Below, piece by piece: positions 34,193 through 56,215 of a DNA stretch of 64,000 nt. A program made the position numbers and the translations under genes. The notes beneath the pieces were generated by a model that was not told where the DNA came from, searched no databases, and saw only the letters and a list, made by a program, of their open reading frames with translations. Source of the stretch: Natrinema sp. CBA1119 (lineage in GTDB: Archaea; Halobacteriota; Halobacteria; Halobacteriales; Natrialbaceae); the NCBI RefSeq assembly GCF_002572525.1, contig NZ_PDBS01000001.1:2852001-2916000 (forward strand), given 5' to 3'. Each line of letters begins with the position of its first letter. Position 1 is the first letter of the stretch.

Positions 34193-34432
34193 CTATTCGT
34201 CGGTCTCGAGTTCGCTTACGTCGAGGTCTCCCTTGAGATAGGAATCCCCCGTTTCTGTTAACTGATAGAGACCAGTATCAACTGACTCTAGGAGTCCAGC
34301 ATCGGACAGTGCGCTACATCGTCTGCTCACGTACTGACGGTCGTACTCGATATTCACCGCGAGCACTTTTGGGGAGACCAGAATCGGGTGCACATCGAAA
34401 AAGAGCATAATCTCGTAGTCGACAGGAGCCAT
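34193..34432 (-). CDS. Small winged-helix DNA-binding protein
   Basis: The 79-residue protein from the ATG at 34432 (MAPVDYEIMLFFDVH) contains a winged helix: ILVSPKVLAVNIEYDRQYVSRRCSALSDAGLLESV followed by a beta wing YQLTETGDSYLKG, and ends in an acidic tail. The pattern is common in haloarchaeal PhiH1-repressor-like regulators on plasmids and proviruses. It marks the start of the plasmid-like region. The target is unknown. An ATG at 34453 is also possible. Confidence 0.75.
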   Translation of the reverse strand: MAPVDYEIMLFFDVHPILVSPKVLAVNIEYDRQYVSRRCSALSDAGLLESVDTGLYQLTETGDSYLKGDLDVSELETDE

Positions 34433-34687
34433 CCAAGATACTCGCTCTACCATCTGTTGGTGAGTACCTGCCAGCAGTGCAGAAAAAGTAGCACTATTGG
34501 CAGGGAGAGTGTATACAATCGTTGTTTTATTCGATCAACGCCCGTTGTTAAGATTTATGTCAGTGGAGGATATTTTCTCTGGTACGGAAGCATACACGAC
34601 TCTCTCGGTTGCAGAGTCGTAGAATAGCGGACCGGTGTTTGCGGCACCGAGTCCGCGAGCAGCTCCCGTAAACCACCTACGGAAGCC

Positions 34688-35254
34688 ATGATGAACGACG
34701 ATTCGCGGGGTCTTGAAAGCCCCGACCGACCGCACGCATCGACGCCGAACGACAGAGTCGCTTGTGACGGCGGAACGACCGACGAGTCCGTCCGCGAGCG
34801 CCTCGAGACGATCACCGAACTCACGAACAGCATCCTCGAGGAGGTGCGGAACCCTGACACCGCGAGCGATCTCGAGGACATCTCCGACGAGACGCGCCGT
34901 GGCGCGACGCGTCGGTTGCGAGAGATCGATGCGGAAGCGAGGCGCGTGGGCCTCGAACTGTTCGGGCCGGGGATGCTGATTCCGAGGCGGTCGGCCGAGA
35001 AAGTCGACGACGACCGCCAGACCGACGACCTCCCGACGGTCGTCGGCTGTGATTCGCTCACGACGACCTTTCGGGGACCGATCCCGGGTGCCCTCGAACA
35101 CGCGACCGGCGACCGCAAGCCCGCTAGTATTGATGAACTCCTCGACGGAGAGATCGGAACCGCCGACGACTCCAACCACGCAGACACCACCAACCACGAC
35201 GACACCACCAATCGCACTCCCAACGAAGACAACGGTGATCGCGATGGGGAGTGA
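34688..35254 (+). CDS. Hypothetical acidic protein upstream of the coiled-coil gene
   Basis: A 188-residue, highly charged protein. A helical block at about residues 35-100 (RERLETITELTNSILEEVRN and RRLREIDAEARRVGLELFGPG) is followed by a low-complexity tail rich in Asp, Thr and Asn. No family was recognised. It overlaps the next gene by 11 bp and is probably translated together with it. The second paralogous locus at 43.4 kb lacks this gene, so it is not obligatory for the coiled-coil protein. Confidence 0.65.
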   Translation: MMNDDSRGLESPDRPHASTPNDRVACDGGTTDESVRERLETITELTNSILEEVRNPDTASDLEDISDETRRGATRRLREIDAEARRVGLELFGPGMLIPRRSAEKVDDDRQTDDLPTVVGCDSLTTTFRGPIPGALEHATGDRKPASIDELLDGEIGTADDSNHADTTNHDDTTNRTPNEDNGDRDGE

Positions 35255-36140
35255 CTCGAGCGCGAGCTCCGACCATCCCAAACCCCTCGCACGCGAACTC
35301 GAGGCCCTCCGCGATCAGATCACGACCCTCGAGGACCGAGTTGCGGACCTCGAGGCGGAGTGCGGGCAGAAGAACGATCGAATCGGCTCGCTCGAGGCGG
35401 AGTGCCAACAAAAAGACGACCGAATCGCGGACCTGGAACAACGACTGACCGAGTGCGAGTCCCGGACAACCGAAACGAACCGCGCGGCCGACGCCGCGCT
35501 CAAGAAGGCGGACGCCAACAAGGATCGCGTCCGCGAGCTTCAGGGTCGCGAACTCGAGAAGGGCGCGCACCTTCGAACGGAGACCGTCGATCCCCACGAG
35601 ATCCACATCACGAGCGATCGCCTCGAGAAGTTCACCAGGGACGACGGACGAACGTACTACCGCGTTCCGGACTCGAGCGATCCGCTGGATCGAACCGACG
35701 GTGTCGCGCTCGCCCACGGGGACCTCCTCCCGATCCAGCAGCTCGCGCGGATGGACGCGGACATGCGCCGCTCGAGCGCGAACTCCCTCCCCACCCGACT
35801 GGCCGCGAAACTCTGGCAGGCCAGGACCGACCCCACGATAGGAGACGATCCCTGGACGGACGGCTGCAAGTCCGTCGCCGAGTACGTCACCGCGGGCGAT
35901 CTCAAACACTGGATCCGCAGGCAGGAAGACGGGATCAGCGAGACGTATGCCAAGAAACTCGTCTCGAGGACGATCGACGCGATCCTCGACCTCTCCAAAC
36001 ATCGCCTCGCGGTCAGCAAACGCACCCAGCGAAAGAACGGGCTCGAGTACACCGAGCGCCGACTCCTCCTCCCGACGGGCGCCGAGATTCCCGGGGAGAC
36101 GACGAACCCGGCTGACTCCGAAGCGATGAGTGCCCCCTAG
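35244..36140 (+). CDS. Coiled-coil protein of unknown function, paralogue A
   Basis: The 298-residue protein starts MGSDSSASSDHPKPLARELE. Residues about 15-110 form a heptad-rich coiled coil with a repeated motif (LEAECGQKNDRI, LEAECQQKDDRI). A conserved globular part follows, with ELEKGAHLRTETVDPHEI, LPIQQLARMDADMRRS, LKHWIRRQEDG and SRTIDAILDLSKHRLAV. The globular half is strongly similar to the protein at 43352-44242, and both genes are followed by the same conserved non-coding element. This suggests a plasmid maintenance or DNA-binding role, but the family was not recognised. Upstream in-frame ATG codons (from 35049) are rejected because they overlap the preceding gene out of frame. Confidence 0.8.
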   Translation: MGSDSSASSDHPKPLARELEALRDQITTLEDRVADLEAECGQKNDRIGSLEAECQQKDDRIADLEQRLTECESRTTETNRAADAALKKADANKDRVRELQGRELEKGAHLRTETVDPHEIHITSDRLEKFTRDDGRTYYRVPDSSDPLDRTDGVALAHGDLLPIQQLARMDADMRRSSANSLPTRLAAKLWQARTDPTIGDDPWTDGCKSVAEYVTAGDLKHWIRRQEDGISETYAKKLVSRTIDAILDLSKHRLAVSKRTQRKNGLEYTERRLLLPTGAEIPGETTNPADSEAMSAP

Positions 36141-36320
36141 AGAACGGCTCGAGCACCGAAGCGAAGACGGCTGCAAACGAGACGGCTACGAGCGAGGCGG
36201 CCCCCGGAGACAGCTGACGTCTTCGGGCAGCCGTGGACGGGCTCCGTCACCCCCGCCTCGAGAGCGCGACACCGCGCGCTTGGCCACCAACCGAGACGAC
36301 GCGAGGGCCGGCGAGCGAGG

Positions 36321-36415
36321 ACGGCTAGCCGTGGGTCTCCCTCCTCGAGCAGTCCTCGGCAGTCGACGGCGAGACGGCCTCGAGTGGCCGTCCGGAGACG
36401 ACAGCTGTCCACGGA
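36321..36415. repeat. Conserved non-coding element downstream of paralogue A
   Basis: About 95 bp share block-wise identity with 44328-44416: CGGCTAGC, GAGCAGTCCTC, GCAGTC, GACGACAGCTGTCC. This copy contains the perfect palindromes ACGGCTAGCCGT and GACAGCTGTC. Each copy lies 90-190 bp after a paralogous coiled-coil gene and contains no convincing reading frame. It may be a binding site, an origin-like iteron region or a structured RNA; the role is inferred. Confidence 0.6.
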
Positions 36416-36477
36416 GAAAGACGATCGAGTAGGTGCTTGAAGAGAGACGACCACGACGACCGGAGCGGTGTCCCTGA

Positions 36478-36870
36478 TCAGTCGAGGAGATCGGCCGGTG
36501 CCAGTGCCCCTGCCGTTTCTAGTTCCGTGTCGAAGGAGACGAGCTCGGCATCGTGGCCCTGTGAACATGCGAGGATGAGACAATCGAGTGGATACAGTAA
36601 CGTCTCTTGCTGCAATCGATTCGCGTCCATCATATCTGATGCATCGGGGATAACGACGGCGACGTCCTGCGTGATCTCGGTCTGAATGGTGTTCGCTCGA
36701 GAAAGCTCGAGGCGCTGCTTTTTCGTCAGGACAGTTCGGAGCTCCATGAGATTGAGCGTCGATGTGAGGAATTCGTGGTCAGCGCTCAGCAAGGCAGCCG
36801 CGATCTCCCCCGTTTCCGGTTCATCAGTGACGGCGGCGACGAAAACGTTCGTATCGAGAAAGAGCCTCAT
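36478..36870 (-). CDS. vapC: PIN-domain ribonuclease toxin (VapC family)
   Basis: A 130-residue PIN domain. Acidic metal-binding residues appear in MRLFLDTNVF (Asp 6), TLNLMELRTVL (Glu), PLDCLILACSQ (Asp) and VSFDTELE (Asp). VapC toxins cut tRNA or rRNA when freed from their antitoxin. The start codon overlaps the stop of the upstream 60-residue gene (ATGA at 36867-36870), the standard TA layout. The gene lies just after the conserved element of paralogue A. Confidence 0.88.
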   Translation of the reverse strand: MRLFLDTNVFVAAVTDEPETGEIAAALLSADHEFLTSTLNLMELRTVLTKKQRLELSRANTIQTEITQDVAVVIPDASDMMDANRLQQETLLYPLDCLILACSQGHDAELVSFDTELETAGALAPADLLD

Positions 36871-37046
36871 GTCTGTTCCCGAACGCTCCGGACCTCGTCG
36901 ACGGAATTGACATCGAGTTCGGACGCCATTCCGCGGAGCCGCTCGCCTAACGGGGCGCGGTCGTCGTCAGCGTCATTCGACCGGGTGAATTCAGTCACGT
37001 CATCGACGTACACTCCCATATCCGAGAGCATGAGCGCCACGGGCAT
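36867..37046 (-). CDS. vapB: Antitoxin partner of the PIN toxin
   Basis: About 59 residues from the ATG at 37046 (MPVALMLSDMGVYVDDV), acidic, with no clear ribbon-helix-helix; it is assigned as antitoxin because it is short and directly coupled to the toxin start. The C-terminal part (RLRGMASELDVNSVDEVRSVR) could be the toxin-binding helix. An ATG at 37064 would add six residues. Confidence 0.7.
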   Translation of the reverse strand: MPVALMLSDMGVYVDDVTEFTRSNDADDDRAPLGERLRGMASELDVNSVDEVRSVREQT

Positions 37047-37261
37047 AACAGTTCGGCGGAACACACGGACGGTGTTCGAACAGGGAGCGAACGATCGGAG
37101 GCTCGAGATTCTGAGCGACGCTACCGATCGAGATGAATTCTCGGTCGCGGAACGAAAAGACGAACTCCGCTCACGAACCGAGAGGGATCTCGGTCAGTGT
37201 TCGACGACACGGACGTTCGATATGCTGTTCGTTCGATTCGTATGCCAGCGGATCTGAATCG

Positions 37262-37453
37262 ATGATATCGGATCTCGACGTTAGCGTGGGGGTCACCGAC
37301 GAGAATTCATCGGCCGGCCCGCCGAGGGGAACGGTTACTGGTTCATACGAGTCGAAAAATTCCGGATTGCTATTCGACCGCACTCCACCGGACGACGGAG
37401 CGATCGATCGCGTCCTGACCCACGTCGCGACCGACCGCCGTGAGTCCCCCTAG
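37262..37453 (+). CDS. Possible small acidic protein
   Basis: A 63-codon frame from ATG 37262 has GC-rich third positions and an acidic product (SDLDVSVGVTDENSS and RTPPDDGAIDRVLTHVATD), consistent with a haloarchaeal gene. No family was recognised and it overlaps the end of the next gene by four bases on the opposite strand. It may be the tail of a broken gene. Confidence 0.3.
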   Translation: MISDLDVSVGVTDENSSAGPPRGTVTGSYESKNSGLLFDRTPPDDGAIDRVLTHVATDRRESP

Positions 37454-37575
37454 CCGTCGACGTTCTCTCCGCACTCGAGACAGAAATCGTCCTGCCAGGG
37501 GACGGTGATTCGCACCTCTCGGTCGGCGTCGCAGTTGGGACAGTAGGTTGTTTTCGTCTTTGTGTCGTTGCTCAT
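37450..37575 (-). CDS. Small CPxCG zinc-ribbon protein
   Basis: A 41-residue protein with two Cys pairs, TYCPNCDADRE and CLECGENV, forming a treble-clef or zinc-ribbon motif. Such mini-proteins are common in haloarchaea and some regulate motility, biofilm or stress. It starts at the ATG at 37575 inside a longer artificial frame. Function unknown. Confidence 0.75.
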   Translation of the reverse strand: MSNDTKTKTTYCPNCDADREVRITVPWQDDFCLECGENVDG

Positions 37576-37849
37576 ATCCCCACACCCCCGGATCGTCGCG
37601 AGACGATGGGCGCTACGCTGAGACGCAACGTCACAGAAGTTAACAGTTTGGGAACCTTGAGTTATACTCCTGAAAATACCAACGGTTACTACCGTGAGCG
37701 GACTATTCCTTCCATTTTCCGTCGAGAGAAGCGATCGAAGACGACCCAGTCGACAGCGACGACGCGGTCGACTCGAGGGCTCTTCGAGGAAAGCCTTCGT
37801 GTCTCCCGCCTCGAAGAGTGGGTAACGCGGCTCGACGTTGAAACCGAAT

Positions 37850-38116
37850 ATGAGCGACTCAAACGCGCGTGAGCACCTCGACGCGAAGCACGAACGGAAC
37901 CGTGAGCAACGCATTGAAGGCATCACGCGCTGGGTCGAATACATCAGATCCGAGCCGCCAGAAACGTGGGGGCCACAACAGAACGCGGTCGTCAATGGCC
38001 ACCTCGATGCGGCCAAAAGCGTCCGGACTTCGGCTGCACACCAGCAGCACGTGAAAGACGTAGCGGCGGAGATCATCGAAGTGCGCGACAGGTTCAACAA
38101 CGACGATTCGAATTGA
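37850..38116 (+). CDS. Small helical hypothetical protein
   Basis: The 88-residue protein from ATG 37850 (MSDSNAREHLDAKHERN) is predicted to be helical and charged, with RIEGITRWVEYIRSEPPETWGPQQNAVV in the middle and a C-terminal helix KDVAAEIIEVRDRF. No family was recognised. Codon use is host-like and the gene has no obvious partner. It lies between the zinc-ribbon gene and a decayed nitronate monooxygenase fragment. Confidence 0.65.
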   Translation: MSDSNAREHLDAKHERNREQRIEGITRWVEYIRSEPPETWGPQQNAVVNGHLDAAKSVRTSAAHQQHVKDVAAEIIEVRDRFNNDDSN

Positions 38117-38199
38117 CGTTCTCCCCTCCCTCAATACGCCGAAGGCGTGTAGGATCGGGTAGGGACACGGGGATGAGTGAGAGGCTGCCTTGCGTGGCG

Positions 38200-38400
38200 A
38201 TGGTATTGACCCTGGCTTCGAGAATCACCTCGAGATACTCGTTTCTCTCTCCCATCATCGTCGCGCCGCGTGACCGCGAGGTTACCGAGGCCGCCGGCGT
38301 TCGAGACGGCCGTTGCGAGTTCTGGGGCCGTCGCGCTGCCGACCGATGTCTAGGCGATTGGAAACGACACCTCGAGGAGCGCTCTCGCCGTTCGAACGGT
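38200..38400 (-). pseudogene. N-terminal fragment of a nitronate monooxygenase-like gene
   Basis: The minus strand contains TSVGSATAPELATAVSNAGGLGNLAVT, the FMN-site beginning of 2-nitropropane dioxygenase-type enzymes (shown here in two parts: SVGSATAPELATAVS and NAGGLGNLAVT). A stop precedes it and the frame is lost afterwards. A C-terminal fragment of the same kind of enzyme lies at 39198-39329, so the two relics flank the vapBC pair. Confidence 0.55.
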
Positions 38401-38485
38401 GTCGGTCAGTCCGATCATCGGATGGGTGACTTGTGACCGCTGTCGATCTACTACCACCAGTCTCTACTTCCCGTAAATGATTTTC

Positions 38486-38501
38486 GTATGGGTACCCATA
38501 C
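38486..38501. promoter_or_regulatory. 16-bp perfect palindrome, probable VapB operator
   Basis: GTATGGGTACCCATAC is fully self-complementary and lies 8 bp before the antitoxin start at 38509. VapBC operons are usually autoregulated through such a site, so this is a good operator candidate. Confidence 0.65.
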
Positions 38502-38508
38502 ATCTAGC

Positions 38509-38736
38509 ATGAGCAAGAACATCTCGATCTCGGACGATGTCTATCGAGAGCTAAAACGAGAGAAGGGCGACCGGAGTTTCAGTGACGTCATTCGAGACAA
38601 TCTCGAGGAGCGGCGGAAACTGGCCGACGTCACGGGGGCTGGAGTCCTCGACCGGGAGACGCACGAAGACGTGAAAGACGATATCAAGCAGCTGAGCCGC
38701 GGGACGCTCTCGAGAATGGACGATGAAACTCTGTGA
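38509..38736 (+). CDS. vapB: VapB-type antitoxin
   Basis: The 75-residue protein begins MSKNISISDDVYRELKREKGDRSFSDVIRD, a DNA-binding antitoxin N-terminus of the archaeal DUF217/VapB type. A C-terminal tail (IKQLSRGTLSRMDDETL) would wrap the toxin. The gene overlaps the toxin gene by 14 bp and is preceded by a 16-bp palindrome. The in-frame ATG at 38488 lies within the palindrome and is less likely. Confidence 0.88.
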   Translation: MSKNISISDDVYRELKREKGDRSFSDVIRDNLEERRKLADVTGAGVLDRETHEDVKDDIKQLSRGTLSRMDDETL

Positions 38737-39133
38737 CACGTCCGTCCTCGTCGATATTGATCGCGGTGGCGTCGCTGATCGAGTGACGAAACTCGACGAC
38801 GAGGGTCACCACGCAATCAGTAGCGTCACGGTCACCGAACTCCGCCACGGCGTCGACAAACGGTATGAAGACGATTCGTCACGAGAGGGCGCTCTGGAGG
38901 ACCTCGACCGACTCCTTGCCCGATTCGAACTCGTCGAGATCGATCGAGCGGTCGCGACCGCGGCGGCGGATATCATCACCGACCTTCAGCGGCGTGGAAA
39001 GCCGTTACACGATCTCCACGACGTCTACGTCGGCGCGACTGCAGCGGTCGAACGTCTCCCGGTACTGACCGCGAACGTCGATCACTTCGAGCGGATGGAC
39101 GATGTTTCCGTCGTCGACTGGACGTCGTTTTAG
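38723..39133 (+). CDS. vapC: PIN-domain ribonuclease toxin (VapC family)
   Basis: A 136-residue PIN domain: MKLCDTSVLVDIDRG (Asp 5), TVTELRHGVDKRY (Glu), LHDLHDVYVGATA (Asp) and LTANVDHFERM (Asp). Such RNases are held inactive by VapB and released under stress. It is translationally linked to the antitoxin by a 14-bp overlap. The pair is flanked by two fragments of a nitronate monooxygenase. Confidence 0.92.
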   Translation: MKLCDTSVLVDIDRGGVADRVTKLDDEGHHAISSVTVTELRHGVDKRYEDDSSREGALEDLDRLLARFELVEIDRAVATAAADIITDLQRRGKPLHDLHDVYVGATAAVERLPVLTANVDHFERMDDVSVVDWTSF

Positions 39134-39197
39134 CTGAATATCGTGCGACGTCCGCTTCTCGAGGAGCAGGAACGCGGCGCATACTCGCGGCGACCGA

Positions 39198-39329
39198 TCA
39201 GCCGTGACGGACTGCCGGCAACCCCGAGACCGTCTCGATCGTCTCTGCGACGAACTCCTCGAGCAACGCTCCCACCGGCCGAACATCGTCGGTCAGCCCG
39301 CCGCTCTGGCCGGCGAACAGCGCCATGTC
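39198..39329 (-). pseudogene. C-terminal fragment of a nitronate monooxygenase-like gene
   Basis: The minus strand reads MALFAGQSGGLTDDVRPVGALLEEFVAETIETVS, typical of the C-terminus of these FMN enzymes, where the conserved LFAGQSxGL precedes the last helix (quoted parts: MALFAGQSGGLTDDVRPV and LEEFVAETIETVS). Nothing upstream continues the frame. Together with the fragment at 38200 it is a relic; the order of the two pieces is inverted relative to a normal gene. Confidence 0.6.
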
Positions 39330-39348
39330 ATGTGACAGGTCACATGAC
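39327..39348. repeat. Perfect 10-bp inverted repeat with 2-bp spacer
   Basis: GTCATGTGAC, then AG, then GTCACATGAC. It lies at the upstream edge of the nitronate monooxygenase relic. It could be a regulator site or the scar of an excised element. Confidence 0.45.
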
Positions 39349-39732
39349 GCTCCCGGGCGAGGGTCGAAACCCGCCCCGCTGACCTCGGGAGAGTGAGTCC
39401 TGAAACTGACCGGTAGCAAGCCGGATTCCCTTCGTGTGGGGAAGTCATGCCGATCACAGCGCAGAAGATATTACTCGATAAAAACGTATTACAGTCAACA
39501 GCACTGTCAGACGGTGAGAACGGCGACGCGGGCGTATCGTGCTGCCCGCCAGCCAGTGACAAACGCGCCGAGTGTACCGATACTGACTACGATCAGAGGC
39601 CCGGCCGCGTAGATACTCAGGGGTGTTCGCCCATTGAGAACGTTCGAACTGATGGCTGCGCACAGATACCGAACGACAGAGCAATACCCGTGAGAGGCGA
39701 ACAATTACTTGATAGGTGAAGGTATACCAGCC
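39349..39732. other. Intergenic stretch before the SDR gene
   Basis: No complete gene is seen. On the minus strand at 39510-39700 a short hydrophobic frame (PLIVVSIGTLGAFVTGWRAA) could be the last membrane helix of a lost permease; the evidence is weak. Confidence 0.35.
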
Positions 39733-40506
39733 ATGGAGATGGACGGACGAACGGCGCTCGTCACCGGTGCGAGCAGAAATATCGGACGAGCGATCGCAGT
39801 GAAACTAGCCGAACAGGGAGCAGATGTCGGCGTTGTCGCCCACACGAACCGGGAGGGGTGTGAAGAAACCGCCAGACGTGTTCAAGCGGCGGATGGCGAA
39901 GCGGCCATCGCACTCGGTGATTTAGGGGTGCCCAGCGACGTCGAGGAGCTGGTTCACACGATCCGTTCGGAACTCGGGCCGATCGACACACTCGTGAACA
40001 ACGCAACCTATAGACCGATAAAACCGCTCCTCGACCTGACCGTTGACGATATCGATCGGGCGATGAACGTGAACGTCCGCGGGACCCTTCTCACGGCCCA
40101 GCACGTCATTCCCGACATGCTGGATCGTGGTGGCGGTTCGATAGTCAACGTGATCGGTGCGATGGTGTATCTGGGTCGTCCGAATCACGCTCACTCGTAC
40201 GGAACGAAGTTCGCCATCGAGGGCCTGACCAGACAGTTGGCGAGCAAGTTCGGACGAGACGGCGTCCGCGTCAATGCCGTCTCACCCGGATTCATCGAGG
40301 TCGGTCGGGACCAAACCGACGACTGGAAACGGGCGCAGGACGCGATTTTCGAGGCGACGCCGCTCGGTCGAATCGGAACTGTCGACGAGATCGCCGACGT
40401 CTGTTCATTTGTAACGTCCGATCGAGCGCCGTTCATTACCGGGCAGGTAATTCACGCCAACGGTGGAACGTATCCGATTCCGCGGATCTTACCGAATGGG
40501 TCGTAG
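39733..40506 (+). CDS. SDR-family protein with altered catalytic residues
   Basis: The 257-residue Rossmann protein from ATG 39733 (MEMDGRTALVTGASRNIG) has the classical SDR NAD(P) motif TGASRNIG, the structural NNAT box and the C-terminal GQVIHANGGTYP. At the active site, the catalytic Ser position reads Gly (NVIGAMVYLG) and the Tyr of YxxxK reads Ser (HAHSYGTKFAIEG), with the Lys kept. It resembles FabG-type oxoacyl reductases but may lack their chemistry, or use the Tyr shifted by one position. It is monocistronic. Confidence 0.8.
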   Translation: MEMDGRTALVTGASRNIGRAIAVKLAEQGADVGVVAHTNREGCEETARRVQAADGEAAIALGDLGVPSDVEELVHTIRSELGPIDTLVNNATYRPIKPLLDLTVDDIDRAMNVNVRGTLLTAQHVIPDMLDRGGGSIVNVIGAMVYLGRPNHAHSYGTKFAIEGLTRQLASKFGRDGVRVNAVSPGFIEVGRDQTDDWKRAQDAIFEATPLGRIGTVDEIADVCSFVTSDRAPFITGQVIHANGGTYPIPRILPNGS

Positions 40507-40754
40507 ACCACGGCAGGCGATTTACCCGCCAACGCCCTCCAGACACCGCTATCTGACTCGATTGCGTCGCTCGAGCAGCAGGCAGCGGTTCGAGGGTCGA
40601 TATACTGTCGCGTATCCGAGAGCTGATCTGCAACCGGCATCCAAGGGGAATGACTACTCCGTTGGCGGACGGAGATGCCACCGCTCGAGAGACGACCAGC
40701 GCCGCGACGGTCCCACCACCCCGCTTTGTATCGCAGCGGGTTGAACGACGAACC

Positions 40755-41102
40755 ATGAGCCTCGCCCTGACACACTTCGCGGCCGGCGCGACCGGTGCAA
40801 CACTCCTTCTGGCGTACCTCCCCGTCCGGACGCGATACGACGCCACCATCGTCGTCGCGAGCGGCTGCTGGGCGTTGTTGCCCGACGTCTGGCGCGTGAC
40901 GCCGATCTATCGCGGGGCCGTCCGAGACCTGAGTCACTCGGCGCTGGGGAACGTCTGTTGGCTCCACGCCGTCTTCGACCGCGCCGATCCCACCGACTCG
41001 GCTCGACTCGCGGCCGTCGCGCTCGGCGTCTATCTGTTGGTCACCGTCATCTACGCCGAACGACGCGGCGACGGTCCGGGCGTCGACCGCGAGCGGCGGT
41101 GA
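40755..41102 (+). CDS. Small membrane protein
   Basis: The 115-residue protein from ATG 40755 (MSLALTHFAAGATGATLLL) has about three hydrophobic segments: residues 5-22, a middle segment (TIVVASGCWALLPDVW) and a last one (VALGVYLLVTVIYAERR). A DLSHSALGNVCWLHAVFDR loop carries His and Asp residues reminiscent of YdjM-like metal-dependent membrane hydrolases, but the match is weak. Function unknown. Confidence 0.65.
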   Translation: MSLALTHFAAGATGATLLLAYLPVRTRYDATIVVASGCWALLPDVWRVTPIYRGAVRDLSHSALGNVCWLHAVFDRADPTDSARLAAVALGVYLLVTVIYAERRGDGPGVDRERR

Positions 41103-41344
41103 GGGTGCCCGCTGGCGCGGGACTCGTCTGGGGATCGGCGGGAACGAGACGTGCCACCTCGAGCGGCGAGGAGCGCGCGCACGATCGTCGATCGACCGGT
41201 TCCCAGGTCAGTCCGTCGTCGGTGCTCCCGTTTCGGCGCTCGACGACCCGGCGGCCGTCGACGACGACCGGGATCGCCATCGCGTCGACCGCTTCGGCGA
41301 GTGAGCAGCCCGCGAACTCGGTCGCCCGGGGCTCTCCAGCGGGA
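41103..41344. other. Intergenic, possibly the end of a decayed gene
   Basis: On the minus strand, 41340-41130 is open and reads ATEFAGCSLAEAVDAMAIPV and VVERRNGSTDDGLTWEPVD, which looks like host-type protein but has no recognised family. It may be a small gene or a relic. Confidence 0.3.
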
Positions 41345-42364
41345 TCAGTCGTCGGCGATCCGGACGAGTTGTTTCCCCACGTTCGTCCCGTCGAACAGCC
41401 CCAGGAACGCGTCGGCAGCGGTCTCGATGCCGTCACTGACTGTCTCGCGATACTGGAGCCGGTCAGCCTCGACCCACCGCCGCAGCCGCGCATTGATGTG
41501 GTCGAACCGATCGGCGTGATCGCTGACGATAAACCCCTCGACGCGCGTGCGGGTCCGCTGGTGGAAGTGCCGCGGCCCGTCCAGTCGGTCGTCGCCCGCT
41601 TCCGCGTTGTAGAGGGCGATCTTCCCGCAGACGGCCACGCGAGAGTGATCGACGAGGTGGTCCATGACGGCATCGGTTACCTCGCCGCCGACGTTCTCGA
41701 AGTAGAGGTCGACGCCGCGCGGGCAGGCGTCGGCGACCGCCGCGGAGAGGTCGTCGGTCGTGCGGTAGTTGATCGCCGCGTCGAAGCCGCAGTCGCCGGT
41801 GAGCCAGTCGGCCTTCTCGTCCCGGCCCGTGATCCCGACCACGCGGCAGCCGGCAATCCGAGCGATCTGGCCGGCGACGGAGCCGACCGCGCCGGCCGCG
41901 GCGGAGACGACAACCGTATCGCCGGGTTCGACCCCGCCGACGTCGACGGTGCCGACGTAGGCGGTCCGGCCGGGCATTCCCAGGACGTGCAGCGCCGTCG
42001 AACCCGGTGCCGTCCCCGTGTCGACCGGCTCGAGGGCCGTGCCGTCGACGGCGGCGTACTCGGCCCAGTACAGGTGGCCCGAGACGGTGTCGCCGGCCTC
42101 GAACGCGGCGTGGTTCGACTCGACGACCGTGCCGACGGCCCGTGCCCGCATCGGCTCGCCGACTGGCCACGGGTCGGCGTAGGACTCGCTGTCGCGCATC
42201 CGCCCGCGCATGTACGGATCGACGGAGAGGTACTCGGTCCGGACGAGAACCTCCATCGGTCCCGGCTCGGGGATCGGCTCCTCGGTCAGTTCGAACTCAT
42301 CGGCCGTCGGTTCGCCGGTCGGTCTGCTCGCAAGTCGCCACTGCTGGTTGCGTGTTGTTCCCAT
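41345..42364 (-). CDS. NADP-dependent oxidoreductase (MDR superfamily, prostaglandin-reductase/YncB type)
   Basis: A 339-residue medium-chain reductase: N-terminal EVLVRTEYLSVDPYMRGRM is the LTD/CurA-type signature, the cofactor motif is VVSAAAGAVGSVAGQIARIAG (AxxGxxG), and GVDLYFENVGGEVTDAVMDHL and ALYNAEAG follow. It lacks the zinc-binding Cys residues of alcohol dehydrogenases. Members reduce alpha,beta-unsaturated ketones or aldehydes with NADPH in the cytoplasm. The length is normal and the codon use is very GC-rich. Confidence 0.9.
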   Translation of the reverse strand: MGTTRNQQWRLASRPTGEPTADEFELTEEPIPEPGPMEVLVRTEYLSVDPYMRGRMRDSESYADPWPVGEPMRARAVGTVVESNHAAFEAGDTVSGHLYWAEYAAVDGTALEPVDTGTAPGSTALHVLGMPGRTAYVGTVDVGGVEPGDTVVVSAAAGAVGSVAGQIARIAGCRVVGITGRDEKADWLTGDCGFDAAINYRTTDDLSAAVADACPRGVDLYFENVGGEVTDAVMDHLVDHSRVAVCGKIALYNAEAGDDRLDGPRHFHQRTRTRVEGFIVSDHADRFDHINARLRRWVEADRLQYRETVSDGIETAADAFLGLFDGTNVGKQLVRIADD

Positions 42365-43351
42365 GGCTCTCGACCACTTCGGCGGCCTCGGTCATGACAG
42401 TGCTGATAGGAGCAACCGGGGCCGTGACGCGCCACGCCCGTGCTCGCAGCGCCACTGTGCGGGCACCAACCCTTGGCCCAGCCGCCGCCACGGCGGCGGC
42501 CCTGCGCCGACTTCGACGCGGCAAGTCCGATCACGGCCATCACCGCGGCATCGCGCTCGAACGCCGTGCCGCTGGTTCCGGAGATCGGCGACCAGGCTCA
42601 TTGTCTCGGCACGGAACCCGGTGGTCACATCAGTGCGCATTGCAGGCGTGTACGGGGCCGTTTCAACGACCGGTGTCGAGAGACCCTCGCGGACTGCCCA
42701 ACCAACAACCATCACGCCACAGGCGGACCCCCTCGTGGGCTGGCGGGCCACTCTCACAGGTCACCCGCGTTCGAGCACCACCTGCTGCCACCGGGAAGAC
42801 GCACAGGGCCGCCGCACGCGGGGGCACACTCGAGACTTCGCACGGCGAGACATCATGTTTCCGAGAGGCGATACCGCCCTCCCGCTGCGACAGTCTCTGA
42901 GAGCGACCACGTCGGGCCTGACTCGAGACCGCGTCACTCACTGCATGTAGCAGCGTCACCGTCGCCCAGCTCGCGGTTGGTCCGACACGCCGGACAGCCG
43001 TCGACCTCCCCCTCGACGCCGAACACACGGATTAATTCCGACCGATTGGGGACGATAGCGAAAGCGAACACAAATCCGAGACAGGGGGTGAGTAACGCAG
43101 GGCCTCTCCTGCTTACCGTTATCTGCCAGACAGGATTCCGGTAGCTAGAGTTGGGCTCTGCTGTGCAAACTCGAGCGTGTGAACCCCCTCGAGTAGGCTC
43201 TTCTCCATCCCTGTGAGCTAGGCAGCTACCCTATCTATAGTCCGAACAGCGGGGTACACGTCCTCACTGTCGGGTTCTCGTTCCCAGTTCCCAACGCTGT
43301 CTCTGCCATCGTATCGCCTGATCACCGCACTCATGAGCGACATCAATCACA
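42365..43351. other. Gene-poor region with decayed fragments
   Basis: No intact gene was found in nearly 1 kb. A minus-strand stretch at 42580-42700 (STPVVETAPYTPAMRTDVTT and FRAETMSLVADLRNQRHG) looks like part of a former protein but was not recognised. A truncated copy of the zinc mini-protein gene is present at 42934-43036. The last 200 bp before 43352 show nothing clear. Confidence 0.45.
42934..43036 (-). pseudogene. Truncated copy of the zinc mini-protein gene
   Basis: This is nearly identical to the last two thirds of the genes at 45442-45585 and 53853-53996 (IRVFGVEGEVDGCPACRTNRE), but the 5' third with the first Cys pair is replaced by unrelated sequence. It is a third, broken copy of that repeat. 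Confidence 0.75.
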
Positions 43352-44242
43352 ATGACCGACGATACCGAGACCTCAGATTCGACCCGATCAATCGACCAGT
43401 TTGCGACCGGACTTGAGCACCTCCAGGAGCGCATTGAGTACCTCGAGACGGAACTCGAAACCAAGGACGACCGAATTGACGACCTCGAGCGCGACCGCCT
43501 CGAGAAAACGACCGCCGCTCTCAGAGAGCGCCTCGAGGAGTGCGAACAAGCGCGAACACGCTGTGAGAACGCCGTCGACGCAGCGCTGAACAAAGCCGGG
43601 ACGAACAAAGACCGAATCGAAGAGCTCCAGGCGAGAGAACTCGAGAAAGGTGCCCACCTGCAAACAGAGACCATTGATGAACACGAACTCGAGGTGCAGG
43701 GCGATCGACTCGAGCGGATCACCAAAGACGACGGCAAGGCATACTTCCGGCTTCCCGACAGTGCTGACCCCCTCGACGGCGGGAGTGTCTCGCTCGCCTA
43801 CGGTGATTTGCTGCCCGTCCAGCAACTCGCGCGCATGGACGAAGACATGCTTCGCTCGACGGCGAACGCGTTGCCGACGCGCTTAGCTGCGAAGCTCTGG
43901 AAGGCACGAGCTGACTCGAGTTTCGGTGATAATCCCTGGGAGGCGGGATGTAAAGGTATCAGGGAGTACGTCAAGGCAAGCGATCTGAAACACTGGATCC
44001 GCCGGCAGGAACCAGGGACGAGCGAGGCGTATGCAAAGAAGCTGGTTTCGCGGACGATCGACGCCATGCTCGATCTCTCGAAGCATCGACTGGCAGTTCG
44101 GAGACGGACTGAACGAAAGAACGGCCTCGAGTACACTGAGCGACGATTGGTCCTACCGGAGGATGCTGAGATTCCGGGAGAACCGTCGAACTCGAGTGGC
44201 TCAGACGACGACGCTCCAGAGACAACTGGCGTCCTCGGCTAA
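43352..44242 (+). CDS. Coiled-coil protein of unknown function, paralogue B
   Basis: The 296-residue protein starts MTDDTETSDSTRSIDQFATG. Residues about 20-110 form a coiled coil (HLQERIEYLETELETKDDRI). The globular part matches paralogue A at 35244: ELEKGAHLQTETIDEHELEV, LPVQQLARMDEDMLRS, LPTRLAAKLWKAR, LKHWIRRQEPG and AMLDLSKHRLAV. The family was not recognised. A conserved non-coding element follows at 44328, as for paralogue A. The repeated gene-plus-element unit suggests a plasmid maintenance module or a DNA-binding protein acting on that element. Confidence 0.82.
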   Translation: MTDDTETSDSTRSIDQFATGLEHLQERIEYLETELETKDDRIDDLERDRLEKTTAALRERLEECEQARTRCENAVDAALNKAGTNKDRIEELQARELEKGAHLQTETIDEHELEVQGDRLERITKDDGKAYFRLPDSADPLDGGSVSLAYGDLLPVQQLARMDEDMLRSTANALPTRLAAKLWKARADSSFGDNPWEAGCKGIREYVKASDLKHWIRRQEPGTSEAYAKKLVSRTIDAMLDLSKHRLAVRRRTERKNGLEYTERRLVLPEDAEIPGEPSNSSGSDDDAPETTGVLG

Positions 44243-44327
44243 CCAGGGACAGGCCCTAGTAAGTCCCCTCGAGAGAGGCCACATCTCGTAATAGAACTCA
44301 ATACAGACGCGAGAAGCGGTTAGTTGC

Positions 44328-44416
44328 TAGGTCGGCTAGCTGTAGGTACACTCCTTGAGCAGTCCTCAGCAGTCCATTCAGAGACGACCTCGAAGGTTTC
44401 TCTGGGGACGACAACT
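44328..44416. repeat. Conserved non-coding element downstream of paralogue B
   Basis: About 89 bp matching 36321-36415 in the same order: CGGCTAGC, TTGAGCAGTCCTC, GCAGTCC, ACGACCTCGA and GGACGACAACTGTCC. The palindromes of the first copy are imperfect here. No reading frame is shared between the copies. Confidence 0.6.
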
Positions 44417-44432
44417 GTCCATAGTGCCCATT

Positions 44433-44452: not shown

Positions 44453-44705
44453 CAATCGGCGTCGCAGTCCATCGTGTTCAAGGTCAGCCACGATCCGATG
44501 TCCGTGGTGAGGCCCGCAACGTAACGACCGCCCTGGGCACCAAACCCGAGGTCCCGATATCGAACGCTATGGAACTAAGGTTTCCCATATACCCCTATGC
44601 GAGAAGAAGATGGCTAAGTCAGGATGTATGATTTCCAGACTTCCAATATTCAGAGTGAGATGGCAAGGGAGTAGATTTATATCTATGACCCGCTTAGTGG
44701 TCGAT

Positions 44706-44852
44706 ATGTCAACCGAATTCGCTCGAGAACCCGCCCAGCAGGAAGGGGACAGTGAGCCACACGTCCCGGTGGAGGTCCTCGAAGCGATTGATAACCTTGC
44801 AAAGGGCAACACCGCTAGCAAGGAAGAAATCGAAGCCGTTCTCAAGTTTTAA
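44706..44852 (+). CDS. Small putative antitoxin
   Basis: The 48-residue acidic protein starts MSTEFAREPAQQEGDSE and ends VLEAIDNLAKGNTASKEEIEAVLKF, two short helices. It precedes a 149-residue gene by 34 bp on the same strand, a size and order typical of type II TA pairs. No family was recognised. The assignment rests on context alone. Confidence 0.5.
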   Translation: MSTEFAREPAQQEGDSEPHVPVEVLEAIDNLAKGNTASKEEIEAVLKF

Positions 44853-44886
44853 ACTTTTAAGTCTCATTACTGCTTTTTGAGGACGT

Positions 44887-45336
44887 GTGGCGTATATTCC
44901 CTTGGGCGGGTCGGAAGAGACACACGTTATCTTTGATGGTGGAATCCCTACTCACCTCGCCGATCTGAGTGCTTCCGAACAGCGGGATTTGCTGACGAAG
45001 CTCAGAAACATCGCGAGAGAAGATGCGCCCCCCGATGGATACGTTTACGAACAAATCGGCAATTTAGATATAATCAAATTCAGTGGAACGGGTCGCACAT
45101 ACACAAAAGTAGTCACGTTTATCCCCGAGAGAAATACCCACTATCACATCATTTACGTTCTTTACGTTGACGAAGACCACGACTATGACCAAGGGGGACT
45201 AGGGAAGTTGAGCCAGCAAGCTCAACAGACGCTGGAGATGATCACAAATTTGGAATCTGTTAAAGATGTTGAAACGTATCTTGAAGACCAGAATTCGCTA
45301 ACAGCCGACGACTTGGACGACCTTCTCGACAGATGA
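44887..45336 (+). CDS. Putative toxin-like protein, RelE/ParE-type fold suspected
   Basis: The 149-residue protein starts at a GTG. A central segment has HLADLSASEQRDLLTKLRNIA, then YEQIGNLDIIKFSGTGRTYTKV and a beta-rich HYHIIYVLYVDEDHDYD. The order helix-helix-beta sheet and the IKF...GR phrase recall RelE/HigB/ParE toxins, but the similarity is only structural impression. The acidic tail (LTADDLDDLLDR) is host-typical. With the short gene before it, it could form a new TA pair. Confidence 0.5.
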   Translation: MAYIPLGGSEETHVIFDGGIPTHLADLSASEQRDLLTKLRNIAREDAPPDGYVYEQIGNLDIIKFSGTGRTYTKVVTFIPERNTHYHIIYVLYVDEDHDYDQGGLGKLSQQAQQTLEMITNLESVKDVETYLEDQNSLTADDLDDLLDR

Positions 45337-45441
45337 TATCCACTCCGGCGTGAACGCCAGGGTTTCCTCGCACTGGGAATCTCGGCTATGACGAGTCCAG
45401 AGAGCTGAGAGCAACCGCGTCGAGCCTGACTCGAGGCCACG

Positions 45442-45585
45442 TCACTCACTGCGTGTGGCAGCGTCACCATCGCCCAGCTCGCGGTTGGTCCGACACGCCG
45501 GACAGCCGTCGACCTCCCCCTCGACGCCGAACACGCGGATGAAGTCCCGCGTCACGAACTCGCCACAGTTACTACAGGTCGGCAT
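45442..45585 (-). CDS. Zinc mini-protein (haloarchaeal two-CxxC, DUF7563-like)
   Basis: The 47-residue protein has two Cys pairs, TCSNCGEF and CPACRTN, separated by a short basic-hydrophobic segment (VTRDFIRVFGVEG). It is one of three copies in the window (53853 is intact, 42934 broken). Such proteins bind zinc and may regulate transcription; no function is known. A longer frame from 45681 is artificial. Confidence 0.8.
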   Translation of the reverse strand: MPTCSNCGEFVTRDFIRVFGVEGEVDGCPACRTNRELGDGDAATRSE

Positions 45586-46015: not shown

Positions 46016-46915
46016 TCACGCCCCGTCGGTGCGATTCGGTTCAGCGCCATCAGCTCCACCACTAGTGGTTGGGGGGTCCGCGGTGTCATCGACGGGTGGG
46101 TTGGCCGGGCCGTCGGCCGGCTCACCGGTGGGTGACTCGGTTGGGTCGTCGGGCTCATCACCACTGGGTGGGTCGGTCGGCTGGTCGGGCTCCTCATCGG
46201 GTGGATCATCACCGGGCGGGTCCGGCGGTTGGTCTGCGGCGATCTCCTGTTCGAGAACGACGGTGCCGCTGGTATCGCGCACGATCACGACGTCGCCCTC
46301 CTCGTGCCAGATCTGGAAGTCGCCGCTGTACCCCCAGTAGAGCGTGTCGGCCGTCGGCTCACCCGTGCCGGTGGAGATGGTCACCGTCGCTCCTGGTTCC
46401 AGCGTGAATCCGCGCGGGAACTCGAACGGACTGGCGCTATTGCCCACTCGGCCACCGTCTCTTCGGTCTCGGATGGTCCAACCGGACAGCTCGAGCGGTC
46501 CGTCGCCGGTGTTCCGGAGCGTGAGATACTCCGCGCTGGCTTGCTCGCCGAGGATGTGGTAGTCAGCGAGTGCGAGGGAGACCGGATCACTAGGACTCTC
46601 ATCGTCTTCGTCATCGTCGTCATCGCCGGCCGAATCATCGGTATCATCTGATGACTCGTCGTCCTCCGCAGCCGAGTCCTCGCCGGTGGGCGGTGCATCC
46701 CGAGGCGGTGCGGACTCGGGCTCGGCCACCGCGTCGGGGGTCCGGTAGACCGTCAGGCGGGCAGACTCGGTGGCGAGATCCGTGACGATGGTACTCCACG
46801 TCCCCCCGTCGGCAGCGATTGCCCCGCGTCCGGGGCCGACGTCGTGCGACGCGCTCCAGATCGGCGCTCCCTCGTCGACGACGACGAACGCACCCGCACC
46901 GCGGTCCGCGGTCTC
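46016..46915 (-). pseudogene. Beta-propeller/lamin-tail-domain protein, N-terminally truncated copy
   Basis: In frame from about 46915, the stretch encodes the end of a PQQ-like propeller blade (DRGAGAFVVVDEGAPIWSA), then a very acidic linker. A lamin-tail domain follows (LADYHILGEQASAEYLTLRN, LSGWTIRDRRDGGRVG, TISTGTGEPTADTLYWGY, DVVIVRDTSGTVV), with a Pro/Asp-rich tail. In the copy at 54428 more of the N-terminal part exists. Here it has been replaced by a TnpB element, so longer starts are artificial. Lamin-tail proteins are usually secreted and may bind DNA or the cell surface. Confidence 0.75.
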
Positions 46916-47065
46916 AGCATAATTCGAGGTGGAGCCTCCGACCTCAAGGAGCGAGTGAAGCGAGCGAGTAGGTCGGAGAGGAAACCGACAATGGACGACG
47001 CAACCGCACGACAGCAGCCACTCGACTCCCAAGCGTATAAGTACCATTAGACAGTAATCTGAAAC

Positions 47066-48316
47066 ATGGAGGTTCGTCGAACCGCCCCGGTCAAACTCAT
47101 TGTTCCCGATGAGCGCCACACCGACCTCCACGAATCCGCCCGTCAGTTCCTCCACTGTGCGAACCGCGCCGCCGAGTTTTGTTGGTCCAACGCCTCTCCC
47201 ACAGAGTGCATCACGGCCAACACGACCGCACGGGACGCGCTATACGACGAACTCCGCGAGGAAACCGATCTCACCGCGAACCTCGTTCAAGAAGCCATTC
47301 GACGCGCTGTCCAAGCCGTCAAGGGATGCGTCGAACGGTGGAAGGACGGGAAACGAGTGAGCCAGCCGGAGTTCACGTCATGGAGTATCCTCTATGACAA
47401 GCGAAGCGCGACCTTTTATCGCGACCGCGTGTCCCTCTCAACCGTCAACGGGCGCGTCGAGTGTGACTTTGAACTTCCCTCGGACAGCCCCACACCATAC
47501 GAACGGTACGTGCTGTCCGAGGAGTTCGAATTCCGGGCGAGCACACTGCAATACGATAAGGCGACTGACGAGTTCTACTTCCACATCACGACTCGGAAGC
47601 ACGATTCGGACGATGACGAGTCCGAGGTTTCGGAAGATACTGAGCTCCAAACAGTCCTTGGTATCGACCTCGGCGTCAACAGCCTTGCAGTCGCTTCGAC
47701 CGGGCGCTTCTGGAAGGGAGACGACTACGACCATTGGTGCCGTGAGTTCGAGAAGCGACGCGGTGATCTGCAACAGCGTGGGACGCAAGCTGCGCACAAC
47801 GCGCTTGTTCGCCTCGGCAAGCGCGAAGACGCGTGGCGAAAGCAGTACATCCACACGGTCGCCAACGAAATCGTCACCGAAGCCGTCGAGAACGGATGCG
47901 ACGTGATCGTGTTCGAGAACTTAACGGACATCCGCGAGCGGCTTCCACAGGCGAAGTGGCACCACTTATGGGCGTTTCGTCGCCTGTTCGAGTATGTCGA
48001 GTACAAGGCCGCCGAACGCGGTGTCGCGGCGAAGCAGGTTGCGCCGAACCACACGTCCCAACGCTGTTCTCGGACAGACTGTGGGTTCACGCACGAAGCG
48101 AACCGTGACGACGAACACTTCAAGTGCCAGAAGTGCGGCTACGAGGTGAACGCAGACTACAATGCGGCGAAGAATATCGGGCTCCGGTACGCCCGGAAGC
48201 GGAAACACAGACTCCGTTCCTCGCCCACGTCGGGGAGCGGAGACGCACCAGTAGACGTGCGTGTGAATGGTGGGATGTTGAACGGCGAGAGTCACCGGCC
48301 TATTGCCGGAGACTGA
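47066..48316 (+). CDS. tnpB: TnpB, RNA-guided nuclease of IS200/IS605-type elements
   Basis: A 416-residue OrfB/TnpB. The split RuvC domain shows Asp in GIDLGVNSLAV (about 205), Glu in VIVFENLTDIRE (about 291) and Asp in CGYEVNADYNAAKNIG (about 370). Between the last two lies a four-Cys zinc ribbon (CSRTDCGF and CQKCGYE). TnpB enzymes use an omega-RNA made from the element's right end to cut DNA that matches the adjacent flank. All catalytic residues are present, so it is probably active. Confidence 0.92.
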   Translation: MEVRRTAPVKLIVPDERHTDLHESARQFLHCANRAAEFCWSNASPTECITANTTARDALYDELREETDLTANLVQEAIRRAVQAVKGCVERWKDGKRVSQPEFTSWSILYDKRSATFYRDRVSLSTVNGRVECDFELPSDSPTPYERYVLSEEFEFRASTLQYDKATDEFYFHITTRKHDSDDDESEVSEDTELQTVLGIDLGVNSLAVASTGRFWKGDDYDHWCREFEKRRGDLQQRGTQAAHNALVRLGKREDAWRKQYIHTVANEIVTEAVENGCDVIVFENLTDIRERLPQAKWHHLWAFRRLFEYVEYKAAERGVAAKQVAPNHTSQRCSRTDCGFTHEANRDDEHFKCQKCGYEVNADYNAAKNIGLRYARKRKHRLRSSPTSGSGDAPVDVRVNGGMLNGESHRPIAGD

Positions 48317-55583: not shown

Positions 55584-56215
55584 GACCGCGTCGAGGCCAG
55601 CGGCGTCGTACGGCGGGAAGCAGACCGCCGCGTCGCTCATCGCGCTCGCGACGTGGCTGTCCAGTCGGAGGTCGACCTCAACCAGCTCGTTGTTGACCAG
55701 CCAGACCGAGAGACCGATGCCGTGGGCGAGTTTCCCCTCGCCGCGCAACAGCCGATAGAAGAAGTCGCTGGGGTCGTCGTTCGGATCCTGCTGGACGTGA
55801 TCGAGTTCGGCGAGCAGGAGGACGGTCCACGCCCAATACGCAGCGAGCGCATTCCAGATCCCGGTGAAGACGCCGTCGAGCCCCTCGTAGTCGCCCTTTT
55901 CACCCCTGTCAACGCGGCGAGACTCTCGGTAGCCGCGCTAAACAGCGTGCGACACTCCTTCAGATTCACGTACTCGGCGGCGAGCTGGTCGTGGCGCTGT
56001 GCGAATTCCCAAAGACCCACCGCGTCGTGAGCGTCTTGCCCATGCCGGGCGGGCTATACACCGAGACCGTCGGCGGGAGGTAGCCGTTGTTGGCCCCTGT
56101 CAAATCGTCGCGAGGTCGCGAGCACCGGTGGGAGTGGTGTGCCAGCAACGACCGTCTCGTACACCGGTTCGATAGCCACACTGGTGGTACTCGGTCGAAT
56201 CCGTATCGCACGCGT
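55584..56215 (-). pseudogene. Orc1/Cdc6-family replication initiator, decayed N-terminal part
   Basis: Pieces in order on the minus strand: RDDLTGANNGYLPPTVSVYS with Walker A SPPGMGKTLTTR (about 56080-56020), then AQRHDQLAAEYVNLKECRTLF and FSAATESLAALTGVK (about 56000-55900). After another frame change comes WTVLLLAELDHVQQ with RLLRGEGKLAHGIGLSVWLV (about 55820-55690), and SAMSDAAVCFPPYDAAGLDAV to 55584. The C-terminal winged helix is missing, replaced by the propeller gene. At least two frameshifts inactivate it. Orc1/Cdc6 genes normally sit beside replication origins, so this may mark a dead or moved plasmid origin. Confidence 0.75.

Follow-up and report, generated by a model that had tools for sequence, protein, structure and literature searches.

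A haloarchaeal gene-and-site module with a structured leader RNA that resembles a control unit for replication or maintenance in plasmids and temperate viruses

What does a protein of no known family do with the non-coding DNA that follows its gene? The question arises from a 64,000-nucleotide stretch of the Natrinema sp. CBA1119 genome (contig NZ_PDBS01000001.1, positions 2,852,001 to 2,916,000; hereafter the window, numbered from its first letter), in which two paralogous coiled-coil genes, A and B, are each followed by the same non-coding element. A reading of the letters alone (the sequence-only reading) had noticed this pair and proposed that the protein acts on the element, or that the element is an RNA partner. 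Our comparison of homologous loci extends the picture to a module that comprises a divergent repressor-like gene, a structured leader RNA, one or two small open reading frames (ORFs), the coiled-coil gene and a cis site. Its sequence features suggest a unit by which haloarchaeal plasmids and temperate tailed viruses control their replication or maintenance. We found no description of such a module.

Genes A (35244–36140) and B (43352–44242) lie on the plus strand and encode proteins of 298 and 296 residues, which share 63% identity across 274 residues (E 6e-122). The ORF of gene B is intact, and the two copies have diverged with a dN of 0.31 and a dS of 1.49 (nonsynonymous and synonymous divergence; dN/dS ~0.2). 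The C-terminal tail of gene A is in a frame that differs from that in most homologues. Genome-wide, A and B are the sole genes of their family, and their nearest homologues occur in Natrinema, Haloterrigena, Natrialba and Natronorubrum. Sampled haloarchaeal species matched strongly (E < 1e-50) in 17 of the 22 genomes listed for the organism's own genus and, more sporadically, in other families; the numerous further matches at E ~1e-4 are coiled-coil noise. Forty-four plasmid records match the family, the IMG/VR collection holds four homologues, one of them on a 49.4-kb Natrinema element, and the INPHARED virus collection holds 0 at E 1e-5. Members of the family are common across Natrialbaceae, many of whose plasmids also carry them, and are annotated only as "hypothetical". 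For comparison we assembled 81 sequences of homologous haloarchaeal loci, denoted by L-numbers. One contig labelled as a Syntrophomonadaceae metagenome-assembled genome (L065, PUKV01000091.1) bears haloarchaeal copies of gene and site and is probably mis-binned.

The predicted structure consists of one long helix (residues 4–98) followed by a globular part that ends in a winged helix, with helices at 209–219 and 225–242 and strands at 249–256 and 259–269 in helix-helix-strand-strand order. The winged helix was predicted at a pLDDT (per-residue confidence score) of 92–96 in most blocks, and the globular part at a pTM (overall fold score) of 0.72. Searches of Pfam, NCBIfam, PDB sequences and folds returned nothing significant beyond coiled-coil noise and generic winged helices; the sequence-only reading had not recognised the shared globular domain as any known family either. 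Profiles of defence systems and solved structures likewise gave coiled-coil noise only. Structural matches of the winged helix are all weak (Z < 6); RepE54 and Rep recur among the Foldseek rows, all at E > 0.1. Neither the whole protein nor its globular part matched the IncFII RepA family of Pfam at E up to 1, and the AAA+ domain of Orc1/Cdc6 is absent from the predicted protein, which is coiled coil and winged helix only.

The elements behind A and B, at 36315–36411 and 44326–44421, are identical at 73 of 97 positions (E 2e-13), and the window holds no third copy. The paralogous pair with a common element was thus rightly spotted, as were its palindromic blocks, but its length had been put at about 90 bp; the conserved non-coding region starts at the stop codon and spans about 210 bp, at 36204–36414 for A and 44216–44424 for B, both on the plus strand. 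Each site opens with an inverted repeat, CCG-nn-GAC-N7-GTC-nn-CGG (dyad I, 36204–36226 and 44216–44238), followed by a CCTCGAGAGAG block, a core of the form CTCGA[GCA]GTC-(C)TCG[GCA]GTC and a second inverted repeat (dyad II, 36390–36414 and 44400–44424). The core includes a GCAGTC direct repeat, at 36349–36354 and 36359–36364 in site A and at 44359–44364 and 44369–44374 in site B.

Gene and site are linked well beyond this genome. Plain BLAST with the two window elements as the only queries, run before any model iteration, found the element behind homologues in many haloarchaeal loci, on the plus strand throughout, and an iterated profile recovered 108 elements across the 81 sequences. Of the 82 intact full-length homologues whose downstream sequence is long enough, 79 carry an element within 400 bp past the stop (median 107 bp) in constant orientation. 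The three without one by profile are L035:8766, L086 and L087; in the last two, which are the most distant homologues (Haladaptatus and Halorussus, respectively), the site falls below the profile threshold, yet the direct-repeat pair is visible at the same place. The linkage reaches homologues of about 45% identity on plasmids, and tailed-virus genomes. Many copies have their stop codon overlapped by the left dyad but read that dyad in different frames, and in copy A and L084 the dyad lies past the stop, so it is conserved as nucleic acid and not as protein. These frame changes and the copies beyond the stop rule out that the element is merely the end of a coding region. Neither outcome that the sequence-only reading had named as refuting it, a missing element beside homologues elsewhere or a coding-region end, was thus borne out. 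In three loci, sites form same-orientation arrays (L073 2105–11999, with six sites; L047 4156–8630; L031 6703–11690), with toxin-antitoxin-like cassettes (Fic/Doc-, HicA-, PIN- and DUF433/DUF5615-like) and 3' fragments of the gene between them; these sites remain well conserved despite gene decay.

The two halves of the direct repeat change in concert. A mutual-information scan of 111 copies (effective number 73) was dominated by three column pairs at a spacing of 10 with the same base in both members (z 18.6, 13.6 and 9.9; same base in 99, 90 and 94%). On the protein tree, repeat position 3 underwent nine changes in each repeat, all nine coincident, and is identical between the repeats in 79 of 79 copies; the changes inferred for the first repeat, the second repeat and both jointly were 7, 6 and 7 at position 2, and 5, 10 and 10 at position 1. 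Distant homologues alter the otherwise constant part of the repeat as well, with ACGGCT twice or TCGGGC twice. In contrast to this same-base signal, an RNAalifold consensus for the 3' element contains 7 pairs only (-5.8 kcal/mol), and the 9-mer next to the stop points one way in some sequence classes and the other way in others, which does not allow it to be read as a hairpin. Same-base covariation at a 10-bp spacing, weak pairing and the flipping 9-mer together favour a protein that reads duplex DNA at a pair of identical half-sites spaced by one helical turn, rather than recognition of base-paired RNA, and we rejected the element as an RNA structure because its pairing is weak and its covariation same-base instead of complementary. 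Because gene and site travel together and a winged-helix domain is predicted, action of the protein on the site is the better half of the original proposal, and the RNA-partner half is disfavoured. We also looked for the protein residues that specify the repeat, and set the best columns (212, 254 and 176) aside as confounded with one large clade.

A genuine structured RNA does exist, in front of the operon and not at the 3' element. Leader and 3' element alike lack an Rfam match above the gathering score. The leader of about 108 nucleotides (34583–34690, plus strand; covariance model match 114 bits, E 1.8e-21, as a member of the training set) lies behind a TATA-like box, AAGATTTATGTC (34550–34561, plus strand), which we take for the operon promoter and which recurs in several class-1 leaders. 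It contains TACGGAAGC in two copies and follows a simple plan: the 5' strand of stem P1 (34583–34591), two hairpins (P2, 34597–34619; P3, 34627–34656), the 3' strand of P1 (34662–34670) and a second copy of the 5' strand (34678–34686) directly before the start codon (34688–34690). Other leader sequence classes keep the same plan. Removing either copy of the P1 5' strand from the window leader leaves structures of similar energy, -41.8 and -42.1 kcal/mol, which amount to two near-isoenergetic states. A covariance model built from 19 leaders found 41 in the loci, 22 of them outside the training set. Across these 41, 15 of 26 pairs show double-sided changes, and double-change cells number 96 against 33.8 in shuffled alignments. 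None of 500 shuffles reached the observed count, and slid partners gave 14–26; this alignment was fitted to the structure, which favours covariation counts. The unfitted alignment of 19 leaders gave a lower count in the same direction (16 against 7.1, 0 of 500). Leaders also occur kilobases upstream of the main module in four loci (L014 1210–1317, L015 2468–2569, L027 1094–1203 and L035 1445–1554; E 5e-4 to 1e-18), directly preceding other genes of about 130–150 residues, which may reflect either second modules or a wider use of the leader RNA.

The leader opens onto a small ORF of 188 residues (34688–35254, plus strand) without a Pfam or NCBIfam family, which overlaps the start of gene A. Most loci have one or two such ORFs after the divergent gene, typically overlapping the main gene start, and 7 of the 57 products of upstream ORFs match a TnpB-type zinc ribbon. 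The divergent gene itself (34193–34453, minus strand, start at 34432 or 34453) marks the beginning of the module, ahead of gene A at about 34193; it encodes a winged-helix repressor-like protein of about 80 residues with weak Pfam matches to HVO_A0261_N, Mrr_N and MarR_2. Most homologous loci have a minus-strand gene of about 80 residues at this place, and these genes are very diverse among loci.

Plasmids and temperate tailed viruses carry the module. In 12 plasmid-type loci, 2.35 kb from leader to site are about 90% identical while both flanks differ, and identity falls off sharply at the right edge of this block, where the site ends. A transposon with fixed ends was considered and rejected, with no target duplication identified and some similarity running past the block edge. 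The 49.4-kb Natrinema plasmid encodes a terminase, portal, integrase and ParA, which makes it a temperate virus of plasmid-like form. The gene is also present on a 45.6-kb IMG/VR genome. Both elements have an Orc1/Cdc6-like ATPase gene upstream of the module gene on the same strand.

How might these parts work together? We hypothesize that the variable divergent winged-helix protein represses the operon promoter. The leader would be bistable: in one state, one strand pairs with the 5' end to form a three-way junction that leaves the start codon free, and in the other the same strand pairs with the second copy before the ATG, occluding the start codon region. Such a switch would govern translation from the first small ORF and, by way of the overlapping genes, that of the coiled-coil protein, which may dimerise by its coiled coil and bind the ~210-bp site by its winged helix. 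The likeliest purpose would be to start replication at the site, as an accessory or alternative origin beside an Orc1/Cdc6 origin, in the manner of RepA and oriR1 of plasmid R1.

In R1, oriR1 is situated behind repA. The basic replicon of that plasmid has a repressor acting on the rep promoter, a target in the leader, a leader ORF on which RepA translation depends, then repA and the 188-bp oriR1, with a toxin-antitoxin system close by (PMC4344636, PMC5883639). The haloarchaeal module resembles this IncFII/R1 arrangement (copB-copA/copT-tap-repA-oriR1) in its repressor, structured leader, small ORF, main gene and ~200-bp cis region with protein sites, in its total of about 2 kb and in the toxin-antitoxin genes nearby (PMC4344636, PMC5883639); as in R1, a structured leader, supported here by covariation, precedes a small ORF that overlaps the main gene, with translation control predicted. 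The two differ in that the module is haloarchaeal, its protein is unrelated by profile search and its repressor gene is divergent and variable, whereas antisense RNA and replication are known for the R1 side only. Because the module's parts stand in the order of the R1 basic replicon, replication initiation at the site is our leading explanation, ahead of partition, although a tentative one, with a probability of roughly 0.42. The wider proposition, an unrecognised archaeal replicon class with an initiator that lacks known relatives, a co-evolving adjacent origin, an exchangeable immunity-type repressor and a bistable leader, common to haloarchaeal plasmids and tailed viruses, is more doubtful still.

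Archaeal systems offer partial parallels. Plasmid pRN1 of Sulfolobales (orf56-orf904) also combines a repressor and a replication gene with a required cis element, located within 166 bp behind the rep gene (PMC4234260); its site is one 100-nucleotide stem-loop and ORF904 is a large replication protein, whereas the module's site has direct repeats and dyads and its protein is small, with a coiled coil and a winged helix. Haloarchaeal Orc1/Cdc6 origins similarly place a winged-helix protein next to its own repeats, and linked evolution of Orc1/Cdc6 and its origin recognition boxes (ORBs) has been reported (PMC3528665); the module differs in having no AAA+ domain and no AT-rich element at the site, and its plasmids carry Orc1/Cdc6 separately.

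Several observations weigh against replication initiation. An Orc1/Cdc6 homologue was found on 18 of 18 plasmids searched, separate from the module (in the 49.4-kb element it scores below the curated cut-off), and ParA on 17 of 17, more than 10 kb from the module gene in each and next to it in none; the module usually lies far from both genes. These elsewhere-encoded systems led us to reject the module as sole replicator or as ParA partner, and we found no replicon that depends on the module alone. A published table lists pHTUR03 with neither orc nor rep genes (PMC3528665), but this module-bearing plasmid (NC_013746.1) has a full-length Orc1/Cdc6 frame at 97685–98788 and is therefore not a case of sole dependence. 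The protein matches no initiator by sequence or significant structure. Across 104 copies no AT-rich unwinding element was found at the site, the AT fraction being 0.38–0.40 within it and 0.45 just after, followed by a plateau. In three complete plasmids, neither cumulative GC skew nor keto skew consistently marked the site as an origin. The chromosomal copies are not at an orc gene, the nearest match above cut-off lying about 195 kb away, and homogenisation between neighbouring tandem repeats is a possible alternative source of their concerted change.

These observations give room to other functions, of which partition deserves most attention, although we consider it unlikely. Here the protein would bind the site as a centromere, in a stability module without its own ATPase, and tether the plasmid or pair copies. 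Single-protein partition systems of the pSK1 Par type have a coiled coil and a DNA-binding domain, an adjacent site and no dedicated ATPase. A coiled-coil DNA-binding protein with a cis site adjoining its gene, the proximity of toxin-antitoxin genes and plasmids that already own replicators would suit such a role, but the module's domain order differs, the plasmids that carry it encode ParA elsewhere, such tight control of expression at two levels is commoner among initiators, and chromosomal copies would be pointless. It is considerably less probable that the site serves as a recombination or cassette boundary at which toxin-antitoxin and defence cassettes were added, giving arrays of cassette, gene 3' fragment and site. 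The three arrays described above, the sharp identity edge at the site's right end, the 143-bp repeats around unit B (see below) and the equal scores of sites without an intact gene (53 versus 52 bits) all point in this direction; nevertheless, the module holds no recombinase, the gene fragments that separate cassette and site differ in length, as homologous recombination and decay predict, and the enrichment of toxin families behind sites is moderate (Fisher p ~0.01 under a conservative bound).

A role in superinfection immunity or early-late control, in which an early regulator would use the site at the operon's end as a barrier to transcription or to the replication fork, seems a little less likely again. 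It could explain the high variability of the divergent repressor and the module's place as the last part of the early region in a virus, and the weak winged-helix likenesses include replication terminator protein, though among many others and far below significance; moreover, the module is kept on large plasmids whose visible surroundings contain no further viral gene. Least likely of all is a 3' element that works as RNA, either as a small RNA derived from the 3' untranslated region or as an antisense target bound by the protein: its fixed distance and orientation behind the gene and two CCG-GAC-N7-GTC-CGG inverted repeats, some with G-U variants, are set against the weak pairing, same-base covariation and 9-mer flips reported above.

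The family carries three linked conserved features, a protein family, a site whose halves change in concert and a structured leader absent from Rfam. Haloarchaeal transcripts are mostly leaderless, which makes a structured mRNA leader a rarity in these organisms. Should the module replicate DNA, it would offer a new haloarchaeal vector system and an instance of R1-like control in archaea; should it not, it would still be a clean protein-site specificity system with natural variants.

Within the window, copy A is complete, with all module parts present, and copy B is a truncated relic in which gene and site survive while the leader is gone, as is almost the entire upstream ORF. A possible remnant of the C-terminus of that ORF lies before gene B at 43251–43340 on the plus strand (tblastn, 33% over 30 residues, E 0.003). 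Unit B and a small ORF pair at 44685–45336 are flanked by 143-bp direct repeats that are 92% identical, the left one (42897–43039) being a truncated 3' end of a zinc-ribbon gene and the right one (45405–45547) lying within and after the intact copy of that gene; these repeats suggest that unit B arrived by integration or by recombination between copies. The ORF pair behind site B encodes 55 and 149 residues in a toxin-antitoxin-like arrangement without a Pfam match.

Other neighbours do not belong to the core. A PIN-domain toxin with a short partner ORF lies behind site A on the minus strand (36478–37046; PF01850, E 1.6e-19), and a VapB-like antitoxin with a PIN toxin lies between the copies on the plus strand (38509–39133; PF02697, E 4.6e-14; PF01850, E 2.1e-11). 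An Orc1/Cdc6-like gene fragment at 55587–55874 (E 2.8e-6) is possibly another relic of an integrated replicon. Finally, the region 46016–47155 encodes a Lamin Tail Domain protein (PF00932, E 2e-13), which is unusual in archaea.

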